DNA from: an uncultured Candidatus Saccharibacteria bacterium
GTDB taxonomy: Bacteria; Patescibacteriota; Saccharimonadia; Saccharimonadales; Saccharimonadaceae
Reading direction: 5' to 3'
NCBI GenBank assembly: GCA_946408595.1
Contig: CAMJSX010000009.1
Location: 1-34,372 of the forward strand
Length of the DNA: 34,372 bases
Made by a program: the position numbers and the translations under genes. How positions within the stretch are numbered: position 1 is the stretch's first letter; each line of letters begins with the position of its first letter. Below the pieces are notes generated by a model. The model worked only from the letters and a program-made list of their open reading frames with translations, had not been told where the DNA came from and did not search any database. Shown here one piece after another: positions 9,390 to 11,634 of the stretch.

Positions 9390-10205
9390 ATGAAGAGCAA
9401 GTTTTTTACACCCTCCGATCCATTAGACCAGATTATTAAGACTACCATGCCGGAAAAGCAGGTTTTGAAAACCGAGCATATTTTGACGGGGTGGACAAAT
9501 ATCGTGATTGAAGCGACTACGAATCAGGGAGCTTATTTCTTTAGGTTTCCGAGAAATCCATTTTGGTCTCGCATGATTGTAAAAGATGCCATGGTGTGTA
9601 ATTTCGTGGAAGGAAAAACGAGTTTTTATACGCCGCAAATGAAACTATGTTATGACGAGAAGGGGCGACCTTTCTCGGTGCATCAAAAAATTGAGGGGTA
9701 TACCCTGGGCGATCGGATTTATCATTTGTCGCATACGGCGCTGACTGGTGCGGCTTATGATATTGCGAAGTTTATCAAGGAGCTTTCTGGGATTGATCTT
9801 CGCGACGCACCGGAAGAAGTGAAGTTCCCTCTTAGCGAGTTTTTGCATGAACTGGACTATGAGCACTACGACCATCATATTGATAAGGATCATAACTTTA
9901 TTAAGGCCACTGAGAAAAACCAGCTAGTGCATGGTGATTTGAATCTCGGGAATGTTTTGCTTGACGAAAACGATAAAGTGATTGGCGTGATTGATTTTTG
10001 TTTTGCGGGGACCGGAAACCCGAATATGGACGTGGCGCGAATTGTGTCTCGCCCGGCGCCGAAAGAATTTGAAGACGCTTTCCTGTCTCAATTTGAGGAT
10101 GCTAAAGAAATAACGCGAATGAAAACCGCTTGGAAGCATATCGACAACGGATATGCTGAACACATCAGGACGCATTTTCCGGAAATTAATTTGAATCAGC
10201 TTTAG
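9390..10205 (+). CDS. Aminoglycoside/choline phosphotransferase-like kinase (APH family)
   Basis: 271 residues with a protein-kinase-like fold. The catalytic loop is HGDLNLGNVL (181-190; Asp183 the likely base, Asn188 a metal ligand). The metal-binding DFCFAG (202-207) and the following GNPNMDVARI are typical of the APH family. Such enzymes phosphorylate aminoglycosides, choline, homoserine or sugars. Nothing here points to a substrate, and a resistance role should not be assumed. No Shine-Dalgarno is visible. It ends tail-to-tail with the O-antigen ligase-like gene, overlapping it by 20 bases. Confidence 0.85.
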   Translation: MKSKFFTPSDPLDQIIKTTMPEKQVLKTEHILTGWTNIVIEATTNQGAYFFRFPRNPFWSRMIVKDAMVCNFVEGKTSFYTPQMKLCYDEKGRPFSVHQKIEGYTLGDRIYHLSHTALTGAAYDIAKFIKELSGIDLRDAPEEVKFPLSEFLHELDYEHYDHHIDKDHNFIKATEKNQLVHGDLNLGNVLLDENDKVIGVIDFCFAGTGNPNMDVARIVSRPAPKEFEDAFLSQFEDAKEITRMKTAWKHIDNGYAEHIRTHFPEINLNQL

Positions 10206-11634
10206 GTTTTAAGACTATCCATAAACACGCCGGCAGCAAATAAATATGTAGGGCATTGGGGAGGCCGGCGAAAAATAGAAGTGAGATGCCGTAGGCTAGG
10301 AGCAGAGTCAAAATGGCTGGGCTAACTGAAGTTTTTGCAACTGCGCAGAAGATTGCTATGATTAGTGCCACGGCGAGGAAAATGCCTAGAAGGCCTACTT
10401 CAAGAAGTAGACTTGCGTATTCATTTTGTACGATTTCTTTGGGCGAATCGGTGAGGCCGGCATCATGCATAGCTTGACCAGCGCCACCAATGCCTACGCC
10501 TAGTAGTATGGTTTTAAAATCTTGCGACCAAACTTTGATGGCGTTTCTCGTCATCATTTTGCGGATTTCAGTTGATTCTGGGACGTAGCCGTCGAAGGTT
10601 GATTCGGCTGAATTATCTTGCGGTGCGCTAGCACTACTTTCTTCAGTTTGCCGAATATCAATTATGCCGAGCGATAAATGATTCAAAACTTTTGCTACGC
10701 CAGACTGGTAGGTATCATTTGTTGGTGAAACTTGTGACAAAATACCTTGCAAATTCAGTGTAAACAAGAATGCTCCGGCCATGATGACAAAGGTCCATAA
10801 TACTTTCCAGCTTTTTTGTTTTACGCCCATCCACGTGACCATGAAGATCATCGCTACGGCAAACGCATAAATCGCTCCTCGCGAGAACGTGAGAAACAGT
10901 GTCGCACTGAAGATAAAGAAAAGGATGGCGTAATACTTCACTCGTGGCCGCGTCCGGCCGGCCCGTCGCCACGGGCGGCCGGCGCTAACGCTCGCGCTGC
11001 CGCGCTCCGCAATGCCACTTCGTTGAAGTATTAGCCATCCTGAAATTATTGCCGGTGCGAGAAGTAAATTCCCCATGAATTGTGGTTCGATGGCGAAGCC
11101 GTTTGGATGCGGGAAGCCGAAACTATAGGACGTGCATCCTAAGCACATTAATGAATAATCTCTTGCGACACCACAAACATCCAAGATACATTGCACTAAG
11201 CACCATGCACAGATAAAGAGACTAGAGCCGAAGAACCATTTTAAGAATCTTTGCGAGAAGCCTTCTTGGAGAACGGATTTCAACTCCACTATTAACAAAA
11301 CTGCTATCACGACTAGCCACATCACGCCGCAAGTTAGAATTCCTCGCGTCTGATTTAATGACCACAAAACTGATAAACTGATAAATAGAGGGAATAGCAT
11401 GAAGCGCCATTTTTTCAAACTGCATGAGATAAGCTTCTTTTTGATTAACAGAACTACGCCTGTCAAATCAAAACCAAGAAGCCACAGAATTGGTAGGGAA
11501 ATTTCAAAGTTCATGGTGCTATCGCTACCAAATGAAATCACTGGATAATACGAGAAAAATAGCACCAACGGCAAAACGCACAGTAATAATTCAAATAACC
11601 TCACCAGAGAATTACTTTTTATTTTTTTTGGCAT
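10186..11634 (-). CDS. O-antigen ligase/polymerase-like membrane protein, carrying an in-frame palindromic insert
   Basis: 482 residues with about ten to eleven hydrophobic helices and a large soluble loop between residues about 300 and 375. The segment after it (ILLGVGIGGAGQAMHDAGL... VQNEYASLLLEVGLLGIFL) has the pattern of the Wzy/O-antigen ligase family, which polymerise or transfer undecaprenyl-linked glycans at the outer membrane face. Its start overlaps the glycosyltransferase gene upstream by 23 bases, so it belongs to the glycan operon. Odd feature: residues about 199-237 are encoded by a 120-bp GC-rich inverted-repeat element (10922-11041) that adds an Arg- and Gly-rich stretch to what looks like a cytoplasmic loop. 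The reading frame stays open. Confidence 0.78.
   Translation of the reverse strand: MPKKIKSNSLVRLFELLLCVLPLVLFFSYYPVISFGSDSTMNFEISLPILWLLGFDLTGVVLLIKKKLISCSLKKWRFMLFPLFISLSVLWSLNQTRGILTCGVMWLVVIAVLLIVELKSVLQEGFSQRFLKWFFGSSLFICAWCLVQCILDVCGVARDYSLMCLGCTSYSFGFPHPNGFAIEPQFMGNLLLAPAIISGWLILQRSGIAERGSASVSAGRPWRRAGRTRPRVKYYAILFFIFSATLFLTFSRGAIYAFAVAMIFMVTWMGVKQKSWKVLWTFVIMAGAFLFTLNLQGILSQVSPTNDTYQSGVAKVLNHLSLGIIDIRQTEESSASAPQDNSAESTFDGYVPESTEIRKMMTRNAIKVWSQDFKTILLGVGIGGAGQAMHDAGLTDSPKEIVQNEYASLLLEVGLLGIFLAVALIIAIFCAVAKTSVSPAILTLLLAYGISLLFFAGLPNALHIYLLPACLWIVLKPKADSN
10922..11041. repeat. 120-bp GC-rich imperfect palindrome inserted in a coding sequence
   Basis: The ends mirror each other: AGGATGGCGTAATACTTCA at the left and TGAAGTATTAGCCATCCT at the right, 18 bp paired with one bulged G. 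A further GTGGC/GCCAC pairing lies inside. The centre holds a strong hairpin, CCGGCC-G-GCCCGT / ACGGGC-GGCCGG with a CGCC loop (10954-10982). The 70 bases 10941-11010 are about 84% G+C by hand count, in an AT-rich gene. It has the form of a small non-coding mobile or palindromic element (compare the Rickettsia palindromic elements, which also sit in frame). 120 bp equals 40 codons. No second copy is in this window. Confidence 0.8.

Follow-up and report, generated by a model that had tools for sequence, protein, structure and literature searches.

To our knowledge, palindromic elements lying in frame inside protein genes, although long known, mainly from Rickettsia, have no established mechanism of gene entry. 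Rickettsia palindromic elements (RPE) are about 150 bp long, carry a conserved peptide and are predicted to be tolerated within the protein (PMC10969869), and they lose their identity as repeats with time (PMC6649704). The coding palindromes of Nematomorpha mitochondria are near-perfect inverted repeats with arms of up to 284 bp that encode residues of the host protein, and template switching or conversion has been proposed for their origin (PMC6649704). In yeast coding genes, template switching homogenises the arms of inverted repeats and inverts the spacer between them (PMC8604942). Here, we describe a palindromic insert in a membrane protein gene of Saccharibacteria, which is probably a non-autonomous mobile element: its core is a GC-rich three-way-junction hairpin of about 83 bp, belonging to Candidatus Nanosyncoccus-type Saccharibacteria, and its arms would stem from fold-back copying of the sequence at each target.

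The window, as we call the whole stretch of DNA analysed, is 34,372 nt long and comes from an uncultured Candidatus Saccharibacteria bacterium (contig CAMJSX010000009.1 of assembly GCA_946408595.1); the features of the locus are collected in Table 1. The host gene matches the Wzy_C/O-antigen ligase family of Pfam (PF04932, E 1.2e-10); this check covers the window host only, and the other host proteins mentioned below were named from recognisable sequence motifs. The insert, RSGIAERGSASVSAGRPWRRAGRTRPR, lies in frame in a loop of the host protein with a hydrophobic segment on each side. A first-pass annotation had described mirrored ends of 18 bp with one bulge, and these pair as claimed: positions 10922-10929 are perfectly complementary to 11034-11041 and 10931-10940 to 11024-11033, leaving 10930 unpaired. 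On the sense strand, arm 2 codes for GWLILQ, the end of the preceding membrane segment, and arm 1 for KYYAIL, the start of the next one. The same annotation was right about the strong hairpin, since the segment folds at -42.3 kcal/mol as DNA (z -5.7 against dinucleotide shuffles) and at -76.2 as minus-strand RNA (z -6.8), and about a GC-rich core in a gene of lower G+C content (about 81-82% in the core against 42% in the remainder of the gene and 41% in the window, whose highest 60-bp value, 87%, starts at position 10946). An ungapped inverted-repeat scan of the window returned no hairpin at its threshold because this copy contains a bulge. Its element-forward strand is the minus strand and hence the sense strand of the gene. 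The segment had also been read as a unit of 120 bp, or 40 open codons; the frame is indeed open throughout, but conservation extends over no more than about 83 nt, made up of the kernel given in Table 1, one bulged base and some purine/pyrimidine positions.

Table 1. Features of the palindromic insert and of its host gene, in window coordinates
Feature	Position	Strand	Description	Basis
Outer arm 1	10922-10940		18 paired bases and one unpaired base (10930); locus-specific	Pairing, homologues
Outer arm 2	11024-11041		18 paired bases; complement of arm 1	Pairing, homologues
Kernel of the repeated core	10944-11018	-	75 nt, family F1	Own-genome copies, genus genomes, border base frequencies
Long inner hairpin of the core	10950-10985		GCGCCGGCCGCCCGT-GGCG-ACGGGCCGGCCGGACGC on the minus strand, one bulged A	Folds and Watson-Crick double changes (155 copies)
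Short inner hairpin of the core	10994-11005		GCGC-GGCA-GCGC on the minus strand	Folds and double changes (155 copies)
Host gene	10186-11634	-	Wzy_C/O-antigen ligase-like membrane protein, 482 aa	ORF, Pfam, insert-free homologues

A search with the core identified eight clear copies and one short remnant in the genome to which the window belongs (738 kb, 99% complete), and the core family, hereafter F1, was found in 91 of 147 genomes of the same genus, which bears out the earlier expectation of further copies in the genome and its relatives. Within the window genome the core alone repeats, and the inverted arms flanking it vary from copy to copy. Identical cores occur at three unrelated loci of this genome, and cores of one genome resemble each other more than expected from shuffled genome labels; these two observations suggest recent spread or homogenisation of the cores. 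The element may still be moving. Outside the genus, searching within the same taxonomic family met only weaker relatives, in two other genera. Searching 84,980 species genomes with the exact F1 pattern gave at least 116 contig stretches, and all 80 matches listed are from Saccharibacteria, mostly of ruminant guts and including Ca. Nanosyncoccus alces. The same pattern had no match in viral contigs, and a viral carrier was accordingly rejected; likewise, a known structured RNA was discarded as the element has no Rfam match at E<=1. Related cores at three loci of a sister genus (L386-L388) have arms that are long and close to perfect, those of L386 and L388 being AT-rich, and that possibly double as terminators. 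No earlier description of such an insertion was found in the open-access literature, to which the search was confined.

The arms were examined by comparing the two flanks of each F1 copy. Over the first 20 bases counted from the kernel, complementarity between the left and right flanks is mostly 0.8-0.94, and it declines towards background further out. At positions 8-20, the flanks pair at 0.85 within a copy, against 0.50 when they are taken from different copies and 0.53 for far flanks. The arms, about 20 nt long and present at nearly every site, are therefore locus-specific and not part of the repeat, and the mirrored ends, at first taken as the element's own, arise locus by locus out of the host gene. 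Conservation of the palindrome over its whole length, which is a criterion for RPE, is accordingly not seen in F1. The arms show a weak base preference and recurrent single-base bulges, on the left near positions 5 and 15. Isolated internal mismatches (156 copies) are strongly skewed on the element-forward strand, with 97 G·T, 10 A·C and 28 transversions (p 5e-19); the bias follows the orientation of the element, whichever the direction of the gene, and is also present in intergenic copies. The helices of the core, by contrast, display Watson-Crick double changes and few G·T pairs (155 copies). Decay after insertion was rejected as the source of the G·T excess, which does not rise with core divergence. 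A stronger conservation of arms than of flanks, which homing with co-conversion might predict, is found in single pairs of copies such as L014/L016, not overall.

These mismatches also bear on whether selection for host mRNA structure preserves the complementarity of the arms once the element is inserted, as might be suspected from orthologous copies that differ at both arms and nevertheless retain pairing. Much of this apparent covariation can be explained by independent insertions into the same loop. On the sense strand, G·T and A·C mismatches are equally frequent (66 vs 72), which indicates that mRNA pairing is not selected; moreover, reverse copies show a sense-strand deficit of G·U relative to A·C, and orientation with respect to the gene is random. 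We consider such selection highly improbable.

All nine F1 sites of the window genome are in frame inside conserved genes, namely the window gene, MnmA, TatD, TrmD, UvrC, a P-type ATPase, a LepA-type GTPase, Der and PheT. Among 156 distinct armed copies, 134 lie within ORFs of at least 140 aa, with a forward-to-reverse ratio of 68:66, and the remaining 22 are all located between ORFs; no broken gene was recognised. The inserts sit in variable loops of the host proteins, and the same loops are occupied repeatedly across species, in both orientations. Reading phase is uneven (phase 0 in 51 of the 68 forward copies, phase 2 in 56 of the 66 reverse ones), and we therefore take this bias as selection on the protein for the least harmful peptide. 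The best explanation is that inserts persist only at sites where both frame and protein survive, each adding a linker rich in G, P, A and R to a loop. Core enzymes of ultra-small parasitic bacteria would, in this way, repeatedly acquire linkers of about 30 residues of mobile origin. A different solution would be the removal or skipping of the insert during expression, by self-splicing, protein splicing or ribosome bypassing, leaving the host protein unaffected. A very stable hairpin within essential genes invites this thought, and mitochondrial bypassed elements, according to work cited in PMC6649704, are likewise palindromic. Yet coding copies keep the frame with a strongly biased reading phase, half of them are reversed so that one RNA structure could not splice them all, the sites are variable loops, and Rfam offers no match; together, these points render removal or skipping highly improbable.

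Uninterrupted alleles give a view of the sites before insertion. TrmD is continuous in many genomes, and in many others an insert separates the helix ending in AREFA from the strand HYIILC. The empty alleles have no palindrome; in the filled ones, one arm lies on the native AREFA codons and its inverted copy falls in a variable spacer. Empty TatD alleles do not have a palindrome either, and the native arm, formed by the SLVAIGE codons, is on the opposite side from that of TrmD. For the window gene, the first-pass annotation had asked whether the stretch is missing from homologues, and many do lack it: they mostly have 45-52 aa between IEPQF and FLTFSRG, against 72 in the window, i.e. a net gain of about 20-27 codons instead of 40, with both arms overlying host sequence. 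Three relatives have acquired the stretch independently, with their own copies in this loop; in two the loop contains a different palindromic family, in one case with an 18-bp perfect arm pair. Net gain amounts to 89+-2 nt in TrmD, 89+-11 nt in Wzy_C and 78+-5 nt in TatD, to be compared with about 83 nt for the core alone and about 100 nt if a whole arm were added. Since the gain is close to the length of the core and below the larger value, an inverted copy of one flank has apparently replaced the opposite one.

Partial deletions have produced in-frame scars in TrmD (L142) and in TatD (L159 and L172). The loci L077 and L313, whose outer flanks are 92-93% identical, contain cores that are flipped relative to each other and of different subfamilies, and show turnover at one site. 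The same sites are found occupied in both orientations, yet with cores that also differ, so that independent insertion may account for this as well as spacer inversion. A target-site duplication was rejected: just outside the arms of 180 copies, direct repeats show no clear excess over shuffled pairs for 4-mers (19 vs 15.1) and 6-mers (1 vs 1.1), and the count of 5-mers (9 vs 4.0) equals the largest of 100 shuffles. The GAAA on both flanks of the window segment, tentatively proposed as such a duplication, is probably due to chance.

Two explanations have to be confronted with these alleles. In the first, the element would target pre-existing hairpins, both arms predating the insertion, and indeed, in the window copy, the residues encoded by either arm are plausible for the host protein. 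The empty TrmD and TatD alleles of many relatives, however, are free of palindromes, and shuffled sequence yields no such hairpins, making prior hairpins a very unlikely origin of the arms. In the second, the insert would be an assembly chimera or a contamination, a concern raised by the fact that most sequences are metagenome assemblies. Hundreds of copies from independent assemblies, different animals and different projects, at orthologous sites, with scars and in different families, speak against it, and we regard an artefact as very unlikely, to the point of being negligible. Taken together, empty alleles, scars, orthologous sites and hundreds of copies point to the target as the place where the palindromic arms are formed.

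F1 is not the only core of this kind. Through the TrmD inserts we found F3, a family unrelated to F1, in 70 of the 147 genomes, including that of the window. Arms are present in 55 of 55 distinct F3 copies, 54 of which lie in ORFs; they pair at about 0.95 up to position 20 (except position 7), dropping to 0.58 at position 21, with recurrent single-base bulges near 7 on the left and near 12-15 on the right, and with a weak consensus past the first six bases. The G·T bias is absent from F3 (8 vs 12 A·C, 55 copies). In 876 kb of related loci, which had been chosen for F1, we counted 119 hairpin inserts, of which 46 lack the exact F1 motif and belong to several kinds; shuffled sequence contained no hairpin inserts of such kind. 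Several unrelated core families behave like F1. At the TrmD loci L299-L336, one loop hosts palindromic cores of at least five or six unrelated families, across species. In the TatD gene of one genome (L065), the F1 copy is followed in the same loop by another palindromic element, unrelated to it and with perfect 18-bp arms; the resulting spacer is very long and its frame is open. Palindromes also exist in non-coding sequence (L207:6397-6608, L282:2031-2229 and L221:1643-1821), where perfect arms of 25-38 bp enclose a different core of about 128-142 nt that holds nested hairpins.

As to how the arms arise, fold-back (template-switch) copying is the best-supported mechanism. The hairpin core would enter protein genes in either orientation and would fold back during insertion, replication or repair; the growing strand could then, by template switching between inverted repeats, take about 20 nt of one flank as its template and so replace the opposite flank, a process that may also flip the core. 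Such copying would explain the empty sites, the net length, the two orientations and the random gene direction. Long palindromes may be allowed to persist by the lack of an SbcD-type hairpin nuclease: SbcD, a subunit of this nuclease, appears to be missing genus-wide, as none of the 147 genomes reaches the cut-off, whereas 13 of 14 control genomes are positive. Three features are not explained by fold-back copying, namely the sharp 20-nt end, the recurrent bulges and the strand bias of F1. Perfect arms of varying length would be expected from it, and the arms observed end sharply at 20 nt and are bulged; in addition, the net gain in TrmD is slightly larger than the core.

These three features give some weight to a dedicated insertion system that would work on a single-stranded form. 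In such a system, the folded forward strand, as ssDNA or RNA, would be the substrate of an enzyme or of a complex guided by RNA, which would measure about 20 nt of target with a molecular ruler, build or require a bulged arm, and home to preferred sites. The sharp arm end in two unrelated families, the recurrent bulge positions, the 97:10 ratio of G·T to A·C that the element-forward strand shows whichever way the gene runs and the weak base preference of the arms would all suit it, as would the repeated occupation of the TrmD, TatD, MnmA and Wzy_C loops, also by different families, although the recurrence could simply reflect a small number of loops able to tolerate inserts. Against it, the copied arm in TrmD does not track the orientation of the core, F3 is devoid of G·T bias, and no mobilising enzyme was identified: a Y1 transposase is absent from the window genome and found in 5 of 147 genus genomes, and no reverse transcriptase was detected in the window genome, even though its domains occur in 87 of the 147. 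The absence of an enzyme from a 99% complete assembly is good, not absolute, evidence, and we rejected RAYT or a reverse transcriptase as a resident mobiliser because neither was detected in the own genome. That Saccharibacteria own an undescribed system of this type, placing several hairpin-core families in genes and endowing each copy with custom arms by duplicating the neighbouring host sequence in inverted, bulged form, seems to us a minority possibility, roughly one to be kept in mind behind fold-back copying. With arms that form at the target, the old puzzle of gene entry becomes testable, as one can ask whether hairpin cores acquire their arms through fold-back synthesis.

Known systems resemble the element in part. 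Bacterial MITEs are also small, repeated and palindromic, with no gene for their own movement. The initial proposal of a palindromic repeat or MITE tolerating insertion into coding sequence stands for the small repeat and its in-frame position, but F1 copies have neither a shared terminal inverted repeat nor a supported target-site duplication, which separates them from MITEs. GC-rich hairpins are shared with REP/BIME sequences, and the GGAG tetranucleotide at the foot of the short F1 hairpin presumably resembles a REP feature. REP/BIME sequences are, however, mostly extragenic, have conserved ends and depend on RAYT, a transposase of the Y1 type that is lacking in the window genome and in 142 of 147 relatives. 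The palindromes of Nematomorpha are inverted repeats inside coding genes, with arms encoding host residues as here, but they are mitochondrial and no repeated mobile core has been described for them. Template-switch homogenisation, known from quasipalindrome mutations, overwrites one arm with the inverted copy of the other, inverts spacers and affects coding genes (PMC8604942); it operates on existing imperfect repeats with short spacers, whereas here a new 83-bp core would be the trigger and arm length is fixed near 20 nt. The closest parallel is offered by RPE, as first suggested from the window alone: both are short palindromes that lie in frame within unrelated protein genes of bacteria with reduced genomes, and in both several sequence families coexist. 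Compared by description, not by sequence, F1 departs from RPE in that its conserved unit is only about 83 bp and its outer arms of about 20 bp come from each host locus. The element thus works like an RPE but differs from it in having arms that are made by the locus.
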